Shown here: positions 4,573 through 19,017 of the stretch, piece by piece | Numbering within the stretch: the stretch's first letter is position 1 | Layout: each line of letters opens with the position of its first letter | Made by a program: the position numbers and the translations under genes | Notes under the pieces: model-generated | What the model was told of the DNA's origin: nothing | What the model saw: only the letters and a program-made list of their open reading frames with translations | Database searches by the model: none | Virus record (IMG/VR): IMGVR_UViG_3300022864_000019 | Coordinates: 1-20,381 of that record | Source: a virus | DNA: 20,381 nucleotides | Reading direction: 5' to 3' (one strand)

Positions 4573-4809
4573 ATGAAATATGGGATGATTTTTACTTGGT
4601 GGGAATTTAACGGAAAGAGAAAAAGACTACCTAGGGAGATAGTTTTTACTAAATATGGTGGGATTGACCGAAGGTACAAGTTTAACAAGGAGTTTCTTAA
4701 AAACAAGAAATGGAAGTACCGAGACCCTGTTTGGGAGATGTATGCCCCTAAGATAGTAAATAGTGTTTTTGAGCCGAATATAATGTTAGAGCAGTTAATG
4801 AAGAAATGA
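4573..4809 (+). CDS. Hypothetical protein (78 aa)
   Basis: Unrecognised. It starts 6 nt after terL without a visible Shine-Dalgarno, probably by coupling, and ends with an ATGA overlap to the next gene. The product is basic and rich in aromatic residues (many Trp, Tyr and Phe, particularly in the first 12 residues and residues 41-58), suggesting a small compact beta-containing fold. Position between terminase and portal is often occupied by small variable phage genes. No motif assigns a function. Confidence 0.65.
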   Translation: MKYGMIFTWWEFNGKRKRLPREIVFTKYGGIDRRYKFNKEFLKNKKWKYRDPVWEMYAPKIVNSVFEPNIMLEQLMKK

Positions 4810-5027
4810 GGTACGATCTAGTAATTAAAGAACACAATGTTAAGCCACATCTAGACCTAGAGAACGATATTAGAGCCAGGAAGGAGGGTTTATTTACTTT
4901 CGTATTACGAGTGAACAACGGATTTATTACTGATTACAACTTAATGGAGAATGTAGATGCTAAAAGAAAATATCCTGGAGTTGAGGAAGTTATTAGAGGA
5001 AAACTTGCCTCTTCATCTAATAATTGA
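4806..5027 (+). CDS. Small hypothetical protein (73 aa), paralogue of the next gene
   Basis: Unrecognised family, but it aligns with the following gene. H15-L16-x-L-E19-x-D-I22, G28-x-x-T31-F32, G39, then KRKY (53-56) and EE-x-x-R near the C-terminus match HL-x-I-E-x-E-I, G-x-x-T-F, G and RRKY...EE-x-x-R in the neighbour with the same spacing apart from one-residue gaps. The core probably forms two or three beta strands. It begins by ATGA overlap with the previous gene and overlaps its paralogue by 71 nt. The pair probably arose by tandem duplication. Confidence 0.65.
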   Translation: MRYDLVIKEHNVKPHLDLENDIRARKEGLFTFVLRVNNGFITDYNLMENVDAKRKYPGVEEVIRGKLASSSNN

Positions 5028-5175
5028 AAGAGAGATTGAACAATCGCCTTACGGGCAAATGACCTTTAATGTTACTATTAAGGGCGGTAGGGCTGATCTA
5101 AAGACTCTAAATATAGTTAAAAGCAGAAGAAGGAAATATAAGATGCCAAAGGCAGAAGAACTTGACAGAATCTAG
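4957..5175 (+). CDS. Small hypothetical protein (72 aa), paralogue of the previous gene
   Basis: Unrecognised family. GGAGA (4946-4950) lies 6 nt before the ATG. The gene overlaps its paralogue by 71 nt in another frame. Shared positions are H20-L21-x-I-E24, I27, G33, T36-F37, G44, L51, V54, RRKY (58-61) and EE-x-x-R at the end. The extra N-terminal helix (residues 1-18) was built from sequence that also encodes the C-terminus of the upstream paralogue, so that part is overprinted rather than duplicated. The final codons contain the -35 box of the promoter at 5162-5190. Confidence 0.65.
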   Translation: MLKENILELRKLLEENLPLHLIIEREIEQSPYGQMTFNVTIKGGRADLKTLNIVKSRRRKYKMPKAEELDRI

Positions 5176-5190
5176 CAGTCATGTTAGTCT
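5162..5190 (+). promoter_or_regulatory. Putative sigma70-type promoter with extended -10
   Basis: A perfect -35 TTGACA (5162-5167), a 17-nt spacer, and a weaker -10 TAGTCT (5185-5190) preceded by TGT (extended -10 TGn). The predicted transcription start is near 5197. A CTAGCA/TGCTAG inverted repeat (5172-5177 and 5193-5198) brackets the -10 and could be an operator. The transcript would meet a strong terminator only about 50 nt later (5220-5245). The element at 18692-18786 has the same order of parts. Confidence 0.5.
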
Positions 5191-5219
5191 TTTGCTAGCT
5201 TAAACACTTAAGTTGGTGT

Positions 5220-5245
5220 GGCGCTCCCAGGTGGGGCGCTTTTTT
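5220..5245 (+). terminator. Intrinsic terminator or attenuator before the portal gene
   Basis: A GC-rich hairpin, 5221-5227 pairing with 5233-5239 (7 bp, one G-U), with a 5-nt loop and a run of six T (5240-5245). It is preceded by a small perfect hairpin, CTTAA-ACAC-TTAAG (5199-5212). It ends 9 nt before the portal ATG, so expression of the whole head operon must either read through it or be antiterminated. Confidence 0.75.
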
Positions 5246-5254
5246 AATGAAACA

Positions 5255-7063
5255 ATGAAGAAACAAGAGAAAAGAAACGAAATCCTAACAAGAAAAGAAG
5301 CCGCTTATAATTATCTCCGAGAGAAAAGAGTTTTATGGGACGATCTAGAGAAACTATTCCACAATCAGTTAGCTGGTTCAATAACCGAGCAAACTAAGTC
5401 CCAAGTCTTTGATCCCAAACTTACTACCCTAACACTAGAGCGAGGCTATCGAGTTATGGCGCAACTCCCTACTGGTAAAGTAAGGGGTATGTCCAAGAAC
5501 GATACCAGCGCTTCTCACTTAATGAACCTAGTATTAGATAAGTATGTACTTCCCCACGCTAACGCTCAGTTTGATTTCCTCACTAAACTCCGAATGATTG
5601 ATATTTACTCCAATGTATATGGTAACTTCTTTGCCATGGTGGATTGGGATATTAAAGCAAACGACTATATCGGGCCTGATCTTTGGATGCTCAACATCAG
5701 GGATGTATTCCCTCAAGTAGGAGCGGTATCCTTAGAGGACTCTGACTATGTTATTGTGCGAACCTGGCAGCCCTTGAGCTGGTTTGAGAGTAGAGCTAAG
5801 AAGAAAGAATACAAGAATATGTCTAAGGTTATCGCCAAGTTGAAGGATAAGACTGGTTCTAAAGATTCTAGGAGTAGTAACGATATATCTAAAAGAGAGT
5901 CATCACAATACCCTGAGTCAATCGCTGCTAACAAAGCAGGATACTTTGAGGTTCTAACTCAATATGAAAGAGATAAGTGGACTGACTTTAGTGTAGATGC
6001 GGACTTAGTATTTAGAGAGCAAGACAATCCTCACGAGAACGGAGAACTGCCTGTAGTATGCAAGTATTCTATTCCTTTAATAGATGACTTCATGGGAATG
6101 GGAGACTTTGAAAGAGGGCGGTCAATGCAGAATGTAACCAACTCAGTGTGGAATCTTTACTTAGATGCAGTTAAGATGTCTATCTTCCCACCTGCTTTAA
6201 TTAACAAGGACAATATCGCGGCAATGAGTTCAATCAAATGGGGAGCTGCCGAGAAGTGGCTAGTAAGAGGACAGGTAGACAACGCCGCTAAGGTCTTAGA
6301 TTTAAACCCCAAGGGGATAGCTACCTTTAACAACACCTACAATATTGCTAGTTCAGCCTTACTCAATATGTTCGGCACTACCGACACCACAGTAACCGCA
6401 GAAACAGAGGCGGGATATGGTAAGACACCACAAGCCTTACAGATGCAGCAAACCAGAGAGAACACCAGAGACAACGCTGATCGTTTCTATATGGAGCAAT
6501 TCTTAAAGAAGGTCATGGTAAAGATGGTCAACCTTATCAGCAAGAAGCAGTCTAAGGCGATTACTATTAGGCTTTTTGAGGACGAGATTGCCGACTTAAA
6601 GAGAGTCTACCCCGAAGCAGATGAGGATTATAACGAAAAGACTGGTAAGTTATCTATCAACACAGGCAAGACGGGATCAATCCTTTACGACTACGAGATG
6701 GTATCAGGTTCTACCTATGCAGTAGACCAGAAGAGCCAACAAGAGAACTTAGGTCAACTATTACAGTTATTTATTCAAAGCCCAGAACTTGTTCAGGTCT
6801 TGAGCCAAGAGGGATATACCCTAAAGATAGGCGAACTATTTAAGAGGATAGTTGCCAGCTCAGGGATTCAGGATTGGGACAAGATACTAGAGGAGAAAAC
6901 CGACGAGGAGATGGCTGATGATACCTTGGCAGCAGACAAGGAACGACTCATCCAGGCGGTACAGCAGTTTGAGATGAACCAAGTGCCACCTCAACCTCAA
7001 GGACAACCTCCAGTACAACAAGGGCCACCAACAGGAGGACTAGATGAGCAGCCCCAAGCCTAG
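5255..7063 (+). CDS. Portal protein
   Basis: A 602-residue portal protein, which forms the dodecameric ring at the capsid vertex through which DNA enters and leaves. Support comes from position directly between terminase and scaffold/capsid genes, from the length, and from portal-like features: an N-terminal helical stem, a region of alternating aromatic and acidic residues (MVDWDIKAND and LNIRDVFPQ, residues 127-152), a long helical section, and a low-complexity Pro/Gln-rich C-terminus. I chose ATG 5255. An in-frame TTG at 5213 would put the terminator hairpin inside the coding region. No Shine-Dalgarno precedes 5255; instead the ATG overlaps the stop of a three-codon ORF (5247-5258), which could couple translation. 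Confidence 0.85.
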   Translation: MKKQEKRNEILTRKEAAYNYLREKRVLWDDLEKLFHNQLAGSITEQTKSQVFDPKLTTLTLERGYRVMAQLPTGKVRGMSKNDTSASHLMNLVLDKYVLPHANAQFDFLTKLRMIDIYSNVYGNFFAMVDWDIKANDYIGPDLWMLNIRDVFPQVGAVSLEDSDYVIVRTWQPLSWFESRAKKKEYKNMSKVIAKLKDKTGSKDSRSSNDISKRESSQYPESIAANKAGYFEVLTQYERDKWTDFSVDADLVFREQDNPHENGELPVVCKYSIPLIDDFMGMGDFERGRSMQNVTNSVWNLYLDAVKMSIFPPALINKDNIAAMSSIKWGAAEKWLVRGQVDNAAKVLDLNPKGIATFNNTYNIASSALLNMFGTTDTTVTAETEAGYGKTPQALQMQQTRENTRDNADRFYMEQFLKKVMVKMVNLISKKQSKAITIRLFEDEIADLKRVYPEADEDYNEKTGKLSINTGKTGSILYDYEMVSGSTYAVDQKSQQENLGQLLQLFIQSPELVQVLSQEGYTLKIGELFKRIVASSGIQDWDKILEEKTDEEMADDTLAADKERLIQAVQQFEMNQVPPQPQGQPPVQQGPPTGGLDEQPQA

Positions 7064-10461: not shown

Positions 10462-10658
10462 GCTTAGTTTTTAATCCGATTACTGCGAAATTTGATGTAG
10501 TTCGTAGTAAGTCATTCTTAGACACCAGATATGTCAATGTAACGGGCGACAATCTTGAGGGAAATCTAACTGCGGATGCTGGAGTGTTAATAGATGGTTA
10601 TGATGTCTCAGTAGAGTTTGCCTCTATTGATACTGGAATAGATGGGGGGGCATTCTAA
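10458..10658 (+). CDS. Small tail-fibre-like protein (66 aa)
   Basis: The central sequence RYVNVTGDNLEGNLTADAG (residues 24-42) matches the 'YV-x-VTGD-x-M-x-G-x-L' hinge found near the N-terminus of many phage tail fibres and repeated in the next + strand gene as LKTTGDTMTGPLVI. At 66 residues it is much shorter than a working fibre, so it may be an attachment module or a remnant separated from the larger fibre gene by the inserted endonuclease. It starts by ATGA overlap with the upstream gene. Its TAA (10656-10658) overlaps the stop of the convergent endonuclease gene. Confidence 0.65.
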   Translation: MSLVFNPITAKFDVVRSKSFLDTRYVNVTGDNLEGNLTADAGVLIDGYDVSVEFASIDTGIDGGAF

Positions 10659-11215
10659 TGAAAAAGATATTTATCAAACTTACTAGATTTATGACCAAAA
10701 GCAACAGAGTTCTTTGTAGCTGGAAAAACATTAGATGGAATAAGCCAACATTTAGAAAGTTTATCTCCAATGTATCCCATACAAAAAAGATAGTCGCAGT
10801 TTACCTGAGTACCAGCAAGTCCAAAGGAAAACTTATAGTTGGCAAGACGAGAAGATTTAACATTAACTCTTTTTCCATCCCACATAACATCAAAAGGTTG
10901 TTCAGCCTTAAATCTTTTATTAACTCTTGTAGAGCCAGTCAATATTTTAACCGCTTCTTTCTCAGCCTTCATTCCCTTATAAACATTAGTTTTAGTATAT
11001 TCACTTCTTGTCTTAGATTTGCGAGAACGTTTGTTTTCTTTAGAAAGAACAATGAGTCTGTTGCGAGATTTGTATCGCCTTTTATTCTCAAGGAGAGTAT
11101 CTTTCTTCTCAATAGCTATCCATTTAGAGTAACATTTTTTACAAAACCCATGTCCAGAATGAGGGACAGATTTAGTTCCACATTTGAAGCATTGTTTATG
11201 TTTAATAGACCACAT
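10655..11215 (-). CDS. Zinc-finger plus PD-(D/E)XK-like nuclease, probable homing endonuclease
   Basis: The only convincing minus-strand gene. Residues 9-28 carry two Cys-x2-Cys pairs (C9, C12, C25, C28), a zinc finger that would bind DNA. A very basic linker follows (35-80). The C-terminal half looks like a PD-(D/E)XK nuclease: GMKAEKEAVKIL with E85, then PFDV (D109) and VNVKSS with K120. Asn stands where Asp/Glu is usual (N118), so activity is uncertain. Zinc-finger plus nuclease layout, free-standing position between late genes and opposite orientation are typical of homing endonucleases, which cut a neighbouring site and spread by repair. It has its own promoter and apparently no 5' leader. 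The opposite frame is open throughout but has no protein-like pattern. Confidence 0.65.
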   Translation of the reverse strand: MWSIKHKQCFKCGTKSVPHSGHGFCKKCYSKWIAIEKKDTLLENKRRYKSRNRLIVLSKENKRSRKSKTRSEYTKTNVYKGMKAEKEAVKILTGSTRVNKRFKAEQPFDVMWDGKRVNVKSSRLANYKFSFGLAGTQVNCDYLFCMGYIGDKLSKCWLIPSNVFPATKNSVAFGHKSSKFDKYLFH

Positions 11216-13115: not shown

Positions 13116-13889
13116 ATGAAAGAATATATAACAGGAGCCAATGGCTTTGTTGGTAAACATCTGGTAGAGAAGGTGCCAGGTGCTATTACTATTCCTCACG
13201 AACAAATTCTCTCAACTAACCTAGAACCCTTTAACCGACTATTCTTCTTATCAACCTTTGGCAATATGTCTTTTCATGATGACCTTGATGCTATTATCCG
13301 CGCCAATCTACTAGACTTGGTATTCCTTAGTTCACAAGCTAAGTTTGTAGGCTTTAAGTCGTTTGTTTATGTCAGCACCTCATCTGTTAGACTGCCGAGA
13401 CAGACCATGTACTCTAGAAGCAAAAAGGCTGGGGAAGAGATCATGCTGGGTATGGCTGAGAACACTGGAATGTCTTTCTGTTCGGTAAGACCTTATTCTA
13501 TCACTGGCGTGGGTGAACAAAAGAAACACTTAATCCCTAAACTTATTAACTCTTGTCTAACGGGTGAACCAATGGACTTTGTACCAAGCCCTGTACATGA
13601 CTTTGTTGATGTGGAGGATGTGGTTGATGCACTACTTAACTTATCAGAAAACGAAGCTAGGGGAGTATTTGAGGTTGGCACTGGTGTAGGGTACTCAAAC
13701 GAAGATGTTAAAGAGATAGTAGAGTCGGTTACTGGGAGGAAGGCCAAAGTCAATTATGTACAAAACATGCGCGATTATGATACGGAAGATTGGGTGTGTA
13801 AGAACTATCGGGCAAGGAGTTTTGGTTGGTTGCCCACAAAGTCGCTTGAAGATTCAATTAGAGAGATGGTAGCTATCAATGAGAACTAA
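13116..13889 (+). CDS. NAD-dependent sugar epimerase/dehydratase (extended SDR family)
   Basis: A 257-residue extended short-chain dehydrogenase. The NAD-binding motif is TGANGFVG (residues 6-13), the active-site Ser lies in VSTSS (86-90) and the catalytic pair is Y99-x3-K103 (YSRSK). The substrate-binding half has the RPYSITGVGEQ and HDFVDVEDVVDAL signatures of nucleotide-sugar epimerases, dehydratases and reductases. It is shorter than the usual ~310 aa, mainly by a compressed middle of the Rossmann half. It would act on an NDP-sugar in the cytoplasm. It is first in an eight-gene glycan operon and overlaps the next gene by 11 nt. The exact reaction cannot be told from motifs. Confidence 0.85.
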   Translation: MKEYITGANGFVGKHLVEKVPGAITIPHEQILSTNLEPFNRLFFLSTFGNMSFHDDLDAIIRANLLDLVFLSSQAKFVGFKSFVYVSTSSVRLPRQTMYSRSKKAGEEIMLGMAENTGMSFCSVRPYSITGVGEQKKHLIPKLINSCLTGEPMDFVPSPVHDFVDVEDVVDALLNLSENEARGVFEVGTGVGYSNEDVKEIVESVTGRKAKVNYVQNMRDYDTEDWVCKNYRARSFGWLPTKSLEDSIREMVAINEN

Positions 13890-14496
13890 GCTAGAGAAGA
13901 GATGCCTGGAATTGTCTTATGAGAACAAACTATCCCACTTATCCTCGGTATTAAATTCGGTAGACATTATTGACCATATTTACAACACTAAAAAGAAAGA
14001 CGATGTATTTGTATTGGGAAACTCCCATGCTGCCGTAGCCCTCTATGCGGTCTTAGAAAAGAATAAACTAGCCAACGCTCAGGATTTGGTAGAAAAGCAC
14101 GGTACGCACGCTTGTAGGGACTTAGATAACGGTATTTGGGTATCAGGGGGTAGTCTAGGACAGGCAGAGACTATTGCGGTGGGTTTAGCAATAGCTGACC
14201 CCACTACCAATGTGTATTTGCTAACTTCAGACGGAGCTTGTACAGAAGGGGCAATTTGGGAGTCTTTGGGACTTGCAAGGGAGATGGAAGTTGAGAACCT
14301 GAGAATCACAGTAGTAGCTAACGGACATGGGGCTTATTCTAATATAGATGTGGAAGATTTGGACTCAAGGTTAAATGCCTTCTATCCTACCCTAGTAGTA
14401 AGAACTCACATGTTTGAATGGCCTGACTGGCTACAAGGAACTGCTGGACATTATGTGGTTATGACAAAGGAACAATACAAGGAGGCACTAGAGTGA
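13879..14496 (+). CDS. Transketolase-like subunit, N-terminal (TPP-binding) half
   Basis: Matches the N-terminal pyrophosphate-binding domain of transketolase, the half that binds thiamine diphosphate and Mg. Visible features are VLGNSHAAVALYAVL with H50, the SGGSLGQ turn (89-95, transketolase TGSLGQG), SDG at 117-119 where the family has GDG (Asp retained), E123 and N148 in VANGHG. At 205 aa it is shorter than the separate N-terminal subunits of about 270 aa. With the next gene it would form a split enzyme moving two-carbon units between sugars. Such split pairs recur in surface-sugar gene clusters. The gene ends with a GTGA overlap to its partner. Confidence 0.85.
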   Translation: MRTKLEKRCLELSYENKLSHLSSVLNSVDIIDHIYNTKKKDDVFVLGNSHAAVALYAVLEKNKLANAQDLVEKHGTHACRDLDNGIWVSGGSLGQAETIAVGLAIADPTTNVYLLTSDGACTEGAIWESLGLAREMEVENLRITVVANGHGAYSNIDVEDLDSRLNAFYPTLVVRTHMFEWPDWLQGTAGHYVVMTKEQYKEALE

Positions 14497-14990
14497 AAGA
14501 CTGGCACCCATCAATGAGAGGTTGGTTTACTGGAGCCTTACTGGAGATTATGAAAGAGAATAAGAGAGTTGTGCTGATTACTTGCGACTTAGGCTTTGGA
14601 CAGTTTGACAAGATACGAGATGAGGTTGGGTTGCAGTTCTACAATGTAGGAGCAGCAGAACAGGCAGCTTTGGGCGTGGGTATCGGGATGGCCATGAAAG
14701 GCAAGATACCGATAGTGTACTCAATTACCAACTTTGTACTTTATAGACCTTACGAGTGGATTAGGAACTATTTAGAACACGAACAAATTCCTGTGAACCT
14801 AGTAGGTTCGGGTAGAGACAACGACTACTCACATGATGGCTGGACTCACCAATGCCCTGATGCCAAAGCTGTAATAGATACCTTGCCCAATGTTAAGCAG
14901 TTTTTCCCAAAGACTAAAAAAGAAGCAGCGGAACAATTAAAAGTTATGCTCGGAAACGGGAAACCAAGTTTCATGAGTTTAAGGAGGTAA
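14493..14990 (+). CDS. Transketolase-like subunit, pyrimidine-binding half
   Basis: The second half of a split transketolase: residues 49-62 read QFYNVGAAEQAALG, corresponding to the NVGIAEQ region in which the catalytic Glu (E56 here) activates thiamine. IPIVYSITNF and the DYSHDGWTHQCPD segment (111-123) match the family's substrate and dimer-contact regions. It lacks the C-terminal third domain of full transketolases and is 165 aa, so the pair is minimal. GTG start overlapping the previous stop, with AAGGAGG upstream, implies tightly matched translation of the two subunits. Confidence 0.85.
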   Translation: MKDWHPSMRGWFTGALLEIMKENKRVVLITCDLGFGQFDKIRDEVGLQFYNVGAAEQAALGVGIGMAMKGKIPIVYSITNFVLYRPYEWIRNYLEHEQIPVNLVGSGRDNDYSHDGWTHQCPDAKAVIDTLPNVKQFFPKTKKEAAEQLKVMLGNGKPSFMSLRR

Positions 14991-14991
14991 A

Positions 14992-15648
14992 ATGCTAGGC
15001 GCACTATATTATCCGAAAGGAACAAAGAAAGAACCGATTGATTTTGATAGCTTATTTATTCCCTATATATACAAGGAAATCTACTTAGATGGGCTTTACA
15101 TAGACATCTTCAACACTAAGAAAAACATGGTGGTTTTGGATGTGGGGGCGAATATTGGAATTGTTACTGATTACATGAGGCCTTTCTGTAAGAAGATTTA
15201 CTCCATAGAGCCTTCTAATGAACACTTTGCTGCTCTTAAAAAGAACAAAGAGTATAACGAGTGGGAGAATGTGGAGCTCTTTAAAATGGCAATCGCTGAC
15301 AAGGATGGGGAGATGGATTTGAATCAGAATCATAATAATCGTACTTGCCATTCTCTGACTAATGTTGCTGGAACTTCTAGTACCGAAAAGGTTAAAACAA
15401 TGCGCTTAGACACTTTTTTTAAGAAGAATAATATTACGAAGGTAGACTTTATGAAGTTTGATGTAGAAGGCGCGGAGGACATGATTCTTAGGGGTGATGG
15501 GTTTAAGAATGTAGCTGACAAAATTAGTGCTTTAGAGGTAGAGTTTCACTATCCTAATTGGCAAGACTTGGTTAAATATTTAATAGAGATGGGTTATAAA
15601 GCCAGGCGCTACGAGTGTTCGGCTGTAGTCTTGCTCTTTACAAGATGA
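14992..15648 (+). CDS. FkbM-family SAM-dependent methyltransferase
   Basis: A 218-residue Rossmann methyltransferase of the FkbM type. Motif I is VLDVGANIG (48-56), the acidic ribose-binding residue is in SIEPSNEH (71-78) and the FkbM signature is LDTFF...[12 protein letters not shown] (139-162). Family members O-methylate sugars or small molecules and are common in capsule, O-antigen and S-layer glycan clusters, so a sugar substrate is likely here. AAGGAGG precedes the ATG, one base after the transketolase stop. The stop overlaps the next start (ATGA at 15645). Confidence 0.85.
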
Positions 15649-16127
15649 CAGTATACATAGCTGATAAACAAGAATTGAAGGACAATGTTGAGGTTGGTAA
15701 TTATGTGGCTATTGCTGGAGGGGTTCACTTTCATTATAAGGATCAGCACCCATACACCATGCATCACGAAGTAGTTGCTCTTTTCCCATTTGCTGAGTTG
15801 GCTGGTTTAACTCAATATTATGGGTGTGGGGATCGGGGGGATATAGAGATTGGTAATGATGTGTGGATCGGCAGAGAGGCGAAGATACTGGATGGGGTAA
15901 AGATTGGCAACGGAGCGATTGTTGCTGCTTATAGTGTAGTAACCAAGGATGTTCCTGATTATGCTCTAGTCGCTGGAAACCCTGCTAAGGTTAAGAAATA
16001 TAGATTTGACAAAGAGACTATAAATAGGCTAAACGAGATAAAGTGGTGGGATTGGGAAAAGGATAAGATAGCCGAGGCGGTTGAAGATTTTAAAGACATA
16101 AAGGAGTTTATTAAGAAATACAAATGA
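15645..16127 (+). CDS. Hexapeptide-repeat acyltransferase (CatB/sugar acetyltransferase type)
   Basis: A left-handed beta-helix acyltransferase of 160 aa. The hexapeptide signs are [38 protein letters not shown] and the tail [10 protein letters not shown] (residues 65-121 overall; motif shown in parts: [21 protein letters not shown]). The H residue at FHYK, with HPYTMHHEV (30-43), matches the acetyl-CoA/substrate region of the Vat/CatB group. The family O- or N-acetylates sugars and antibiotics; the context makes a sugar acceptor likely. I use ATG 15645, which overlaps the FkbM stop, instead of an in-frame ATG 30 nt upstream inside that gene. Confidence 0.85.
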
Positions 16128-16867
16128 AAACCGCCTTTTTTACTTTGGCTTCTGACGACTACTACTACCCAGTAGGGACTCATGTGTTAATCAACACCTT
16201 TAAAAGATTCCACCCTGACATTGATTTGATAGTCTTTAGGCAGGATATGATTGACAAGGTCTTTGCTGAGAAGAATATCAACTTCTACATGGCCAAACCT
16301 ACCTTCGCCAAGTTACTTACCAAGAAGTATGACCGAGTGGTGAACATAGATGCAGATACTATCATCTTGGCTCGCTTAGATGAAGTCTTAGATCAAGACT
16401 ATGAGGTTGGGACAGTTACCAACTTCAACGATTACGAGAACGCCACTTTGTCTGACATTAAAGAAGAGGACTACTTACAAGCAGGATTGGTCGCTTCTAC
16501 CAATAAGAAGTTCTGGGATATTTGGGAAGAGGCTAATAAAGAGGCGATGAAGTATCTAAGGCAAGAGAACGATGTAATGAACATGATTTGGTACAAACAC
16601 CCCGAAGTGATGAAGATGAAAAAGGTGGTCTTTGACAAGAAGAAGAACTATCTAGGATGTAAGTCTTTAGGGCGCGAGGGAGAGTTCTACCTAGAGAAGA
16701 AGAGGGTAATGTGCCGAGGAGAACAAGTTAAAGCCTACCACCACGCCAAAGGAAGGCCAGCCTTACCTAAGTTAGTAGTAGAAGAGATGGGTTTCCCTTA
16801 TGATGTTGCTACTTATATGCGGTATCTAGCTAGTTCAGGAGTAACGGAGGTATATGGGAACATATAA
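16124..16867 (+). CDS. Glycosyltransferase, GT8-like (GT-A fold)
   Basis: A 247-residue GT-A enzyme. The DxD metal site is NIDADTI (D76, D78), preceded by the nucleotide-binding start [13 protein letters not shown] late HHAKG (206-210) matches the GT8 metal/phosphate motif H-x-x-G region. It would transfer a sugar from a nucleotide donor with retention of configuration, as GT8 members do. It starts by ATGA overlap with the acyltransferase and overlaps the next gene by 14 nt, so it is firmly in the operon. Acceptor unknown. Confidence 0.8.
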
Positions 16868-17639
16868 GCCATATACTGTTTGCATGCCTCCTTTTGATCC
16901 AGTCAGCGGAGGAATTAGGGTAATGTGGGGACTTTATGGCTGGTTATTAACTAAGGGTCAGGTTGTTTACGCTAATGCTAAGTACGACACTCCCTCAATC
17001 GCTATCTACCCAGAGATTTATCACGGCAATCCGGCAGGATCAGAAACAGTAGTAAGATACATTCTTAATAAACCAGGAATAATGGCTTCTGGTGGAGTTC
17101 CTGGTCCAATGGAGTTTGAACCTACTGATCTAGTCTATGTTTTCTCCAAGATTTACGATACCTTTGGTGTAGATAATGACCACTTAATGTTTCTTCCTAT
17201 TCTAAACACCAGCCTTTTTAAAGATCAGAGGCGCAAGAGAACCAAGAGATGTGTTTTTGTAGGCAAGGGACAAGACATTCCCTTAAAAGAAACCAAGGGA
17301 CTTGAGAGAGTTGATCGTGGTTTAGCTATGGATCAGGGGAGATTAGCAGACTTCCTTAACGAGTGCGAAGTGATGTACTCTTTTGAGAACCCAACAGCCA
17401 TGAATGAGATTGCTAGATTATGCGGATGTAAGGTAGTTTTCATTCCTGAAGGAGCTACCCTTAAGTACACCAAAAAGGAGCTTGACACCCTATATGAGCC
17501 GACAGGGCATGGGATTATATGGGGACTAGGCAATGATGCTAAGTTTGACTCTAAGTTGTTCCGCGCGCATTACATGGGATTAAAAGATGAGTTTAGCCTT
17601 AAATTAGATGTTTTTATAAAGGAAACCCAGCGTGCATAA
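16854..17639 (+). CDS. Glycosyltransferase-like protein (GT-B fold, 261 aa)
   Basis: The N-terminus has the GT-B pattern: a hydrophobic strand, then PFDPVSGGIRVMWGLYGWL (residues 13-31), a GG loop followed by a helix. YPEIYHGNPAGSETVVRYIL (50-69) is a motif recurring in phage and bacterial glycan-cluster transferases. Residues 134-204 show a second Rossmann-like lobe, with VFIPEGA (201-207). At 261 aa it is short for GT-B, but the DxD is not expected in that fold. ACGGAGG precedes the ATG. It overlaps both flanking genes, by 14 and 8 nt. I am less sure of this one than of its neighbours. Confidence 0.65.
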   Translation: MGTYKPYTVCMPPFDPVSGGIRVMWGLYGWLLTKGQVVYANAKYDTPSIAIYPEIYHGNPAGSETVVRYILNKPGIMASGGVPGPMEFEPTDLVYVFSKIYDTFGVDNDHLMFLPILNTSLFKDQRRKRTKRCVFVGKGQDIPLKETKGLERVDRGLAMDQGRLADFLNECEVMYSFENPTAMNEIARLCGCKVVFIPEGATLKYTKKELDTLYEPTGHGIIWGLGNDAKFDSKLFRAHYMGLKDEFSLKLDVFIKETQRA

Positions 17640-18705
17640 AGTATTCGCACTCCCAAGCCATGCGGTAGTAGAACGAACCTCGGGAGTAGACTTTGCTCGT
17701 GTAATCCAACCCATGCAGCATTTAGACAAAGAGAAGGACTTTAAGATACAACTCTACGACCCTAAGCTAAACGACAAGTTAGATTGGGTTGAGCTTATTC
17801 CCCAACATGATATTTTGTTTCTAAACTACACCACTAACCCCTGGGCGTTTGCAATTATGGGAACAATAGCTCGTAAGGAAAACAGACAGATCGTGATGGA
17901 CATAGACGATGCTTTATGGGAGGTTCTACCCGACAACACCGCTTATGAAGTATTTAAGAAAAAAGAGGTTAAAAAGACCCTAACTGCTATTTGTAACGAG
18001 GTAGACTATGTTACCTGTACTAACAAGTATTTGAAGAAAGTAATACTTGATCGGACTACTAAGAGATATGATGAGGTAATAGTGATGCCTAACTTCATAG
18101 ACCTTGACCTTTACAAGTATAGATCGCCGTTTAAAGACTCCCTAGATATTAAGTTGCTCCACTTTGGTTCTAGCTCCCACTTCTCAAGTTTACAAGAAGT
18201 TGAGTTTGAAAAAGGATTAAATCGGATTTTGGGTGATTATCCTAATGTAACCTTCAAAACCATAGGCTCACTCATTCCCAAGTATAAGAATAGATGGGGA
18301 CAAAGGTATAGCCATGGGTTCGGAGATGTAGATGTATATAAGTGGATTCAAGAGAAATTCCCAACTTTTCTTGAGGAAGCAGATATCATGGTAGTGCCTT
18401 TAACGAACAATATCTACAATAAGGGGAAGTCTTGTATTAAGTTCATAGAAGCTAGTAGTGCTATTAAGCCTGGCGTATGGCAGAATATTAGACAATACAG
18501 CGAGATAATTCAGGAAGGAGAAAATGGTTTCTTGGCTGAGACAGAGGATGAGTGGTATGATGCTATTAAAAAGTTAGTTGAGAGTGCTTCACTAAGGAAA
18601 AGTATAGCTAAGAAAGCGTTTGAAACTGTACAGAATGGATGGCAAATGAAGGACAACACTCACTTATACGCTGATTTCTTTAGGAAAATCCTTGACAGGA
18701 AGTAA
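17632..18705 (+). CDS. Glycosyltransferase, GT4-like (GT-B fold)
   Basis: A 357-residue GT-B enzyme. The C-terminal lobe has DIMVVPLTNNIYNKGKSCIK (residues 254-273), then FIEASSAIKPGV and IIQEGENGFLAE (288-305), matching the donor-binding region and the 'P-x-x-x-G-x-x-G' loop of GT4 family transferases. The N-terminal lobe has the DIDDALWEVLP acceptor-side segment (86-96) seen in many capsule-cluster enzymes. GTG start, with AAGGA upstream, overlapping the previous stop. It is the last gene of the glycan operon; its final codons carry the -35 of the promoter at 18692. Confidence 0.85.
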   Translation: MHKVFALPSHAVVERTSGVDFARVIQPMQHLDKEKDFKIQLYDPKLNDKLDWVELIPQHDILFLNYTTNPWAFAIMGTIARKENRQIVMDIDDALWEVLPDNTAYEVFKKKEVKKTLTAICNEVDYVTCTNKYLKKVILDRTTKRYDEVIVMPNFIDLDLYKYRSPFKDSLDIKLLHFGSSSHFSSLQEVEFEKGLNRILGDYPNVTFKTIGSLIPKYKNRWGQRYSHGFGDVDVYKWIQEKFPTFLEEADIMVVPLTNNIYNKGKSCIKFIEASSAIKPGVWQNIRQYSEIIQEGENGFLAETEDEWYDAIKKLVESASLRKSIAKKAFETVQNGWQMKDNTHLYADFFRKILDRK

Positions 18706-18720
18706 ATATAATGCTATTTT
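18692..18720 (+). promoter_or_regulatory. Putative sigma70-type promoter with extended -10
   Basis: TTGACA (18692-18697), a 17-nt spacer, and TATTTT (18715-18720) preceded by TGC (extended -10). Predicted start near 18727, followed by a hairpin (CTAAC/GTTAG, 18731-18735 with 18745-18749) and a strong terminator at 18756-18786. The order and spacing copy the element at 5162-5245, and the -35 again lies in the last codons of the upstream gene. Confidence 0.5.
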
Positions 18721-18755
18721 TAATAAAGTCCTAACTGACACAAGGTTAGCACAGG

Positions 18756-18786
18756 AACGGCTAGCGGAAACGCGTGGCCGTTTTTT
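18756..18786 (+). terminator. Strong intrinsic terminator or attenuator
   Basis: Hairpin pairing 18756-18766 with 18771-18782 (11 bp with one G-U and one bulged G), a GAAA tetraloop (18767-18770), and six T (18781-18786). It lies in the 102-nt gap between the glycan operon and the next structural genes. It can end the glycan transcript, and it also lies about 30 nt downstream of the predicted start of the promoter at 18692. Confidence 0.85.
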
Positions 18787-18807: not shown

Positions 18808-19017
18808 ATGGCTAGAAAGAAAAAAGAAAATCCAGTAGAAAAGCTGGTACTAGAGTTGGAAGAGTTATATTTACGAGAGGATTCTGAGATGGCAGGAAGA
18901 GGTCTTTATCAAAAAGGCATCCATAGCATTGTACATCTTGGCGGTCATGTAGATAAGAACAGCGCTCTTCTAAACCGAATCAAAGAGATAGTCTTAGAGT
19001 TAAAAGAGTTAGTTTAA
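18808..19017 (+). CDS. Small hypothetical protein (69 aa)
   Basis: Unrecognised. Strong ribosome site (AAAAGGAGGA) after the terminator. The product is charged and helical: a basic N-terminus, a Leu/Glu helix (residues 10-25), a Gly/His-containing turn (HLGGHVD, 43-49) and a final Leu/Ile/Glu helix (52-69). Heptad-like hydrophobic spacing suggests a helical pair or coiled coil. Nine nt separate it from the large virion-protein gene. Confidence 0.6.
   Translation: MARKKKENPVEKLVLELEELYLREDSEMAGRGLYQKGIHSIVHLGGHVDKNSALLNRIKEIVLELKELV

Follow-up and report, generated by a model that had tools for sequence, protein, structure and literature searches.

Many uncultivated phages, forming a large group, have at the head of the capsid operon, and often of further late operons, a promoter which runs into a stop signal. 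Being set against the first start codon, the stop signal looks like a gate to be opened before particle building. With several units per genome, all of one layout and mostly ending at a start codon, the arrangement provides a testable rule of late gene control for diverse phages known from metagenomes only. In the favored reading, to which a probability of about one half is given, the unit would stand at the start of a late transcription unit, and transcripts would be aborted as a leader of ~50 nt until antitermination in the late phase opens the terminator, in the manner of lambda pR'-tR', AlpA or Xp10 P7.

The portal unit and its parts

The window, i.e. the whole stretch of DNA analyzed, comes from IMG/VR, where it forms a record of 20,381 bases; terminase, portal and major head genes are present in it. 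The whole analysis was computed from sequence, by using promoter and terminator rules of E. coli-like polymerases, which may not be those of the host. The parts of the unit, along with the genes on either side, are the following.

4957..5175, plus strand: ORF for a conserved protein of ~70 aa with a basic C-terminal tail (..LNIVKSRRRKYK..); 41 relatives collected, 35 of them aligned (alignment A4)
5162..5167, plus strand: -35 hexamer TTGACA, read directly; exact TTGACA in 48 of the 55 parsed relatives
5172..5198, no strand: 27-bp dyad CTAGCA-N15-TGCTAG, centered on the -10, with the spacing of CIRCE (the HrcA operator); 12 of 18 positions match TTAGCACTC-N9-GAGTGCTAA
5185..5190, plus strand: -10 hexamer TAGTCT, weak, with TGT upstream; read directly, spacer to the -35 of 17 nt
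5197, plus strand: transcription start inferred from promoter geometry, about 7 nt past the -10; the predicted RNA, ending at the U-tract, is about 50 nt long
5199..5212, plus strand: hairpin 1, CTTAA-ACAC-TTAAG, 5 bp with loop ACAC, read directly; a covarying hairpin lies at the same place in relatives
5220..5245, plus strand: intrinsic terminator, an 8-bp stem GGCGCTCC/GGGGCGCT (5220-5240) followed by T5 to 5245; position kept before the portal genes of relatives
5255..7063, plus strand: portal gene, ATG at 5255, 15 nt past the stem, with no Shine-Dalgarno; sub-threshold match to Pfam SU10_portal PF23899 (E 3.4e-4)

The order described in the earlier note, i.e. promoter, hairpin, gap of 7 nt and terminator ahead of the portal gene, was read directly at these positions. 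The 5-bp hairpin of that note stands too, and is extendable to 10 bp with G-U pairs (5194-5217), about 7 bp of which would be left by a transcription start near 5197. The terminator hairpin has a folding energy of -13.3 kcal/mol. The portal gene most likely starts at ATG 5255, ATG 5247 giving merely an overlapping 3-codon ORF.

Conservation ahead of portal genes

Evidence from the single sequence is weak, because promoter-like sites are as frequent in the window as in shuffled sequences (41 found, 42.2 expected, i.e. no excess); the terminator at 5220-5240 is at the top of the list of candidates. A scan of viral contigs yielded 80 portal relatives, and a second scan 80 terminase relatives; a second portal query, L108, matched itself alone. 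Among named phage records no DNA match was found, and the portal gave one partial match, 27% identical, in a Microcystis phage.

In 41 of 70 non-redundant relatives, which share descent and are not independent, a strict unit, defined by promoter and terminator, lies ahead of the portal gene. None of 1400 shuffles has such a unit, and within these contigs it is found at 3 of the 528 starts of other ORFs. With looser limits a unit was parsed in 55 of the 70 portal upstream regions. Since the strict rule had been fixed after inspection of the first relatives, the 12 relatives found later provide the fair test: a terminator is found in 10 of them and a strict unit in 8. The portal upstream regions differ in sequence and retain TTGACA, the -10, the small hairpin, the terminator and the ATG, with a promoter spacer of 17-18 nt in 48 of the 55 parsed units. 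Several more distant relatives have no portal unit, which thus marks a clade.

The number of promoter-like sites in the window is what would be expected if promoter-like and terminator-like sequences met here by chance. This explanation is already refuted by the shuffle and ORF controls, along with conservation over relatives whose portals (29 sequences aligned) are 56-71% identical to that of the window, and its probability is negligible. Judged from these comparisons, the promoter-hairpin-terminator unit before the portal gene is real and conserved; what is easily put down to chance when seen in a single genome can prove to be a conserved device. In one relative a tRNA gene (L034:3800-3872) lies just upstream of the portal unit.

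Further units and layout of the late genes

A second unit is located in the window, ahead of another gene.

18692..18720, plus strand: promoter TTGACA-17-TATTTT, from sequence reading
18731..18749, plus strand: hairpin 1, from hairpin folding
18757..18786, plus strand: terminator, from hairpin folding
18808..19017, plus strand: first gene past the unit, of family F39, with a good Shine-Dalgarno (AAAGGAGG); in relatives G007 and G008 a unit precedes the same gene family

The earlier note had seen at 18692-18786 a repetition of the order and of the hairpin-to-terminator spacing. This is confirmed, the gap of 7 nt being identical in the two units; the terminator hairpin is stronger in the second one (-17.2 vs -13.3 kcal/mol).

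Further units are found in most of the larger relatives (32-43 kb). In the 13 genomes, some of them fragments, on which the genome-wide counts rest, 32 of the 39 strong terminators on the coding strand are preceded, at a distance of up to 95 nt, by a TTGAC-type promoter, compared to 24% of random positions. Almost all of them are located before the portal gene or before members of families F9/F39, F13 (the SU10-type adaptor, PF24175), F15 or F4; gene blocks on the opposite strand have almost no units.

The major capsid gene is located about 3.2 kb downstream of the unit. Between portal and major capsid gene no strong promoter is found in 10 of 14 genomes, and weak candidates alone are found in the other 4. 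In most genomes capsid expression must therefore pass the terminator, in agreement with the attenuator proposed in the earlier note.

Two other features were observed in the window. Between head and tail genes, a block (13116-18705) contains genes which, named by eye, resemble those for a sugar-nucleotide epimerase, a split transketolase, a methyltransferase, an acetyltransferase and a glycosyltransferase; it mostly recurs in about 13 relatives (families F1, F4-F8, F12). Within the late region, an ORF of 186 aa on the minus strand, with two CxxC motifs (10655-11215), overlaps a plus-strand ORF of 198 aa, and has a promoter match of 11/12 upstream; it is possibly an inserted nuclease gene.

The leader RNA

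Over 76 units, the length predicted for the leader RNA has a median of 54 nt. Hairpin 1 is more stable than hairpins of shuffled leaders (-4.0 vs -0.9 kcal/mol, the best hairpin being taken in both sets), and in a subgroup of 15 members it covaries: all cells are paired, with 19 two-sided changes affecting 4 of 4 pairs, a covariation score attained by none of 500 shuffles. Its loops vary between subgroups and among the units of one genome. An unpaired RCYRATR-like stretch lies ahead of hairpin 1 in about half of the units. A search of Rfam gave no match to a known family at the gathering score.

No enrichment is seen, among the first bases of the transcript, for a sigma pause element resembling a -10: a match at 4 or more of 6 positions is found in 33% of portal units and 41% of shuffles. 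An attenuator based on competing hairpins, switched by ligand or ribosome, was rejected, as pairing between leader and terminator arm reaches -5.1 kcal/mol vs -5.4 in shuffles.

The earlier note had likened the element to the put and nut sites of phages. A small hairpin soon past a phage promoter is indeed a trait shared with HK022 put and lambda nut; here, in contrast, the terminator directly follows the hairpin, and units of one genome share no sequence. In a comparison by eye within G005, G007, G012 and G013, both stem and loop of the hairpin differ from unit to unit, whereas sites of one N protein should share them. For this reason a common RNA site of nut/put type was rejected, and the likeness is unsupported.

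In a subgroup of portal leaders (L009, L024, L026, L030, L045, L046 and others), where the loop is TNTAAT, hairpin 1 could encode an ORF of three codons (ATG and two more, then TAA). The leaders which precede F13/F15 genes in G005, G012 and G013 share TCTTT, a stem and a GAGTG-containing loop; portal leaders differ.

A start codon placed against the terminator

In 36 of 55 units the portal ATG lies 4-8 nt past the terminator stem. Shine-Dalgarno pairing of -5 kcal/mol or better is found for 14% of unit-headed starts compared to 35% of other conserved genes (21 and 272 genes, respectively). By eye, an AGG at the 5' foot of the terminator appears frequent; it might be a Shine-Dalgarno, the hairpin then forming a bridge from there to the AUG.

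The poorer pairing, and a U-tract adjoining the start codon, would be expected if the unit were primarily a translation device, in which hairpin and U-tract beside the AUG steer ribosome entry or yield a processed, leaderless-like mRNA, termination being secondary. Such a device leaves unexplained both the conserved promoter directly upstream and the complete anatomy of a terminator, and is considered very unlikely.

A CIRCE-like dyad in portal promoters

The exact 6+6 dyad is matched once in the window. Matches to CIRCE (TTAGCACTC-N9-GAGTGCTAA) at 12 or more of 18 positions are found in 24 of 55 portal units, compared to 1.04 expected when -35 and -10 are kept fixed and the remainder is shuffled; at 13 or more, in 21 of 55 compared to 0.17. 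The excess is seen at gap 9 only, and the top copy upstream of a portal gene matches 15 of 18. A test independent of the CIRCE sequence gave a peak of perfect 6-mer inverted repeats at inner gap 15, with 10 found and 1.25 expected. Ahead of portal genes the density of 13/18 matches is about 60 times that of the remaining parts of the contigs. Overall about 40% of portal units, the window among them, contain the dyad, at a variable position around the -10; the listed non-portal units do not, except one in L034 (the G016 row is a portal unit).

The 27-bp dyad resembles the HrcA operator in its TTAGCA..TGCTAA half-sites and 9-nt gap, but phage copies match 12-15 of the 18 positions, rather than all 18, and binding of HrcA is putative. 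The dyad may be an operator for a repressor, which would add repression to the portal promoter. No phage-encoded HrcA was found above cut-off in 16 phage records. In a Chloroflexi MAG with a relative, hrcA is present along with CIRCE copies whose half-sites are TTAGCAGTC, and a Patescibacteria MAG with another has hrcA and CIRCE-like sites, the presence of a contig in a MAG being, in both cases, weak evidence about the host. These data suggest that some phages may sense the chaperone status of the host by means of a CIRCE-like operator. The fuller proposal, namely a phage lineage which gates its structural operons by promoter-proximal terminators fused to start codons and keys the head operon to host HrcA, so that capsid genes open on GroEL overload, is held to be quite unlikely as a whole.

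A proposed gated late operon and its alternatives

In the favored mechanism, host RNA polymerase would start at the TTGACA promoter, transcribe about 50 nt of leader, including one small hairpin, and be released by the intrinsic terminator, which ends against the portal start codon; polymerase arriving from the terminase genes would be stopped there as well. Portal, scaffold and major capsid genes would be expressed only once polymerase ignores the terminator, most likely owing to an antitermination factor of the phage that acts late, and the other structural-gene units would be headed by the same gate. Repression would be added by the dyad operator which a large minority of relatives, the window among them, have on or close to the portal -10.

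The promoter is predicted to fire and the terminator to work in the host. Readthrough would be needed, because polymerase from both the promoter and the terminase genes meets the terminator, with the capsid gene behind it. An antiterminator is expected to exist; no gene was identified for it. A gate opened late would account for units being confined to structural operons, and for the large amounts of capsid protein required. The earlier note had proposed either a short RNA of ~50 nt or an attenuator needing antitermination, and both fit the conserved layout, the ATG abutting the U-tract and the several units per genome.

The RNA might itself be the product, as a small-RNA gene whose ~50-nt transcript (5' hairpin and terminator) targets, in trans, mRNAs of the phage or of the host or, like IsrK, switches on translation of the readthrough mRNA. 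Its two-stem anatomy is that of a small RNA, compensatory change maintains hairpin 1, the unpaired RCYRATR-like stretch is frequent, and IsrK is a precedent for one prophage promoter with two RNA products (PMC4825925). For a free small-RNA gene, however, an end located 4-8 nt ahead of a start codon without a Shine-Dalgarno is not required; moreover units recur before structural genes only, and the hairpin loops are not conserved either between subgroups or among the units of one genome. As the main function this is rather doubtful, but, given the IsrK case, a small-RNA role can coexist with the gate.

Virions contain few copies of portal and adaptor. The output of such proteins would be kept low and fixed if the unit were a leaky divider, in which the terminator blocks upstream polymerase while polymerase from the nearby promoter partly escapes, at a constant rate. 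The location of units at operon boundaries and the lack of a Shine-Dalgarno at most unit-headed starts agree with it. Against it, the major capsid protein, needed in hundreds of copies, is encoded downstream of the same terminator, mostly with no strong promoter of its own, and the divider is considered unlikely.

Comparison with known systems

The Q families of antiterminators are mutually unrelated in sequence. Both Q and AlpA use a promoter-then-terminator arrangement (PMC9371919, PMC7969949). The proposed gated operon shares with lambda pR'-tR'/Q a promoter, a short leader and an intrinsic terminator before late genes, with a short aborted RNA expected in the absence of the antiterminator; it differs in having several gated units per genome and a terminator abutting the start codon, and no Q homologue was recognized. 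In the AlpA system of Pseudomonas aeruginosa (alpB, PA0807) a promoter with an embedded binding site is followed by a terminator just before the first gene, at more than one target (PMC7969949, PMC9371919); the promoter, the terminator and the plurality of units are shared, and the dyad is a candidate for such a site in part of the portal units. Here, in contrast, the operons are phage structural ones, and the dyad, mostly absent from the other units tested, is not confined to the region between -35 and -10. In Q-type leaders (lambda pR'-tR', 21, 82; AlpA), as here, late genes have before them a promoter and then an intrinsic terminator; the pause element needed by Q and AlpA is not enriched here, and for this reason the unit was filed as working like, rather than belonging to, the Q/AlpA kind.

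P7 of Xp10 is a phage factor which lets host polymerase bypass intrinsic terminators ahead of late genes (PMC6624301); such terminators are common to both systems, but the unit described here has its own promoter and a conserved hairpin, and no homologue of P7 was identified. IsrK of Gifsy-1 shows that one prophage promoter may give a terminated small RNA along with a translationally inactive readthrough mRNA (PMC4825925), a pair of products which the unit may share. IsrK, however, precedes the operon of an antirepressor, and pairs with the readthrough mRNA made from its own promoter; such pairing would be hypothetical in the present unit. No paper describing this promoter-terminator layout, or a phage that uses CIRCE, came up in a literature search largely limited to open papers. 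The findings point to a search for a new antiterminator, and provide compact natural gates for tests of terminator bypass.

The protein encoded upstream

The last codons and the stop of the 4957..5175 ORF overlap the promoter. In most relatives the protein ends in or beside the promoter, and in about 14 of them the stop TGA lies within TTGACA. An AlphaFold model (pLDDT 86) consists of two helices and a beta hairpin. Identification as a known antiterminator was rejected, no match being found in Pfam, NCBIfam or solved structures, and no fold match with E below 0.001; the protein is a candidate regulator, no more. Two small ORFs located between terminase and portal, 4806-5027 and 4957-5175, contain similar motifs, GLFTF..VN.G and GQMTFNV..K.G, and both families recur in relatives.
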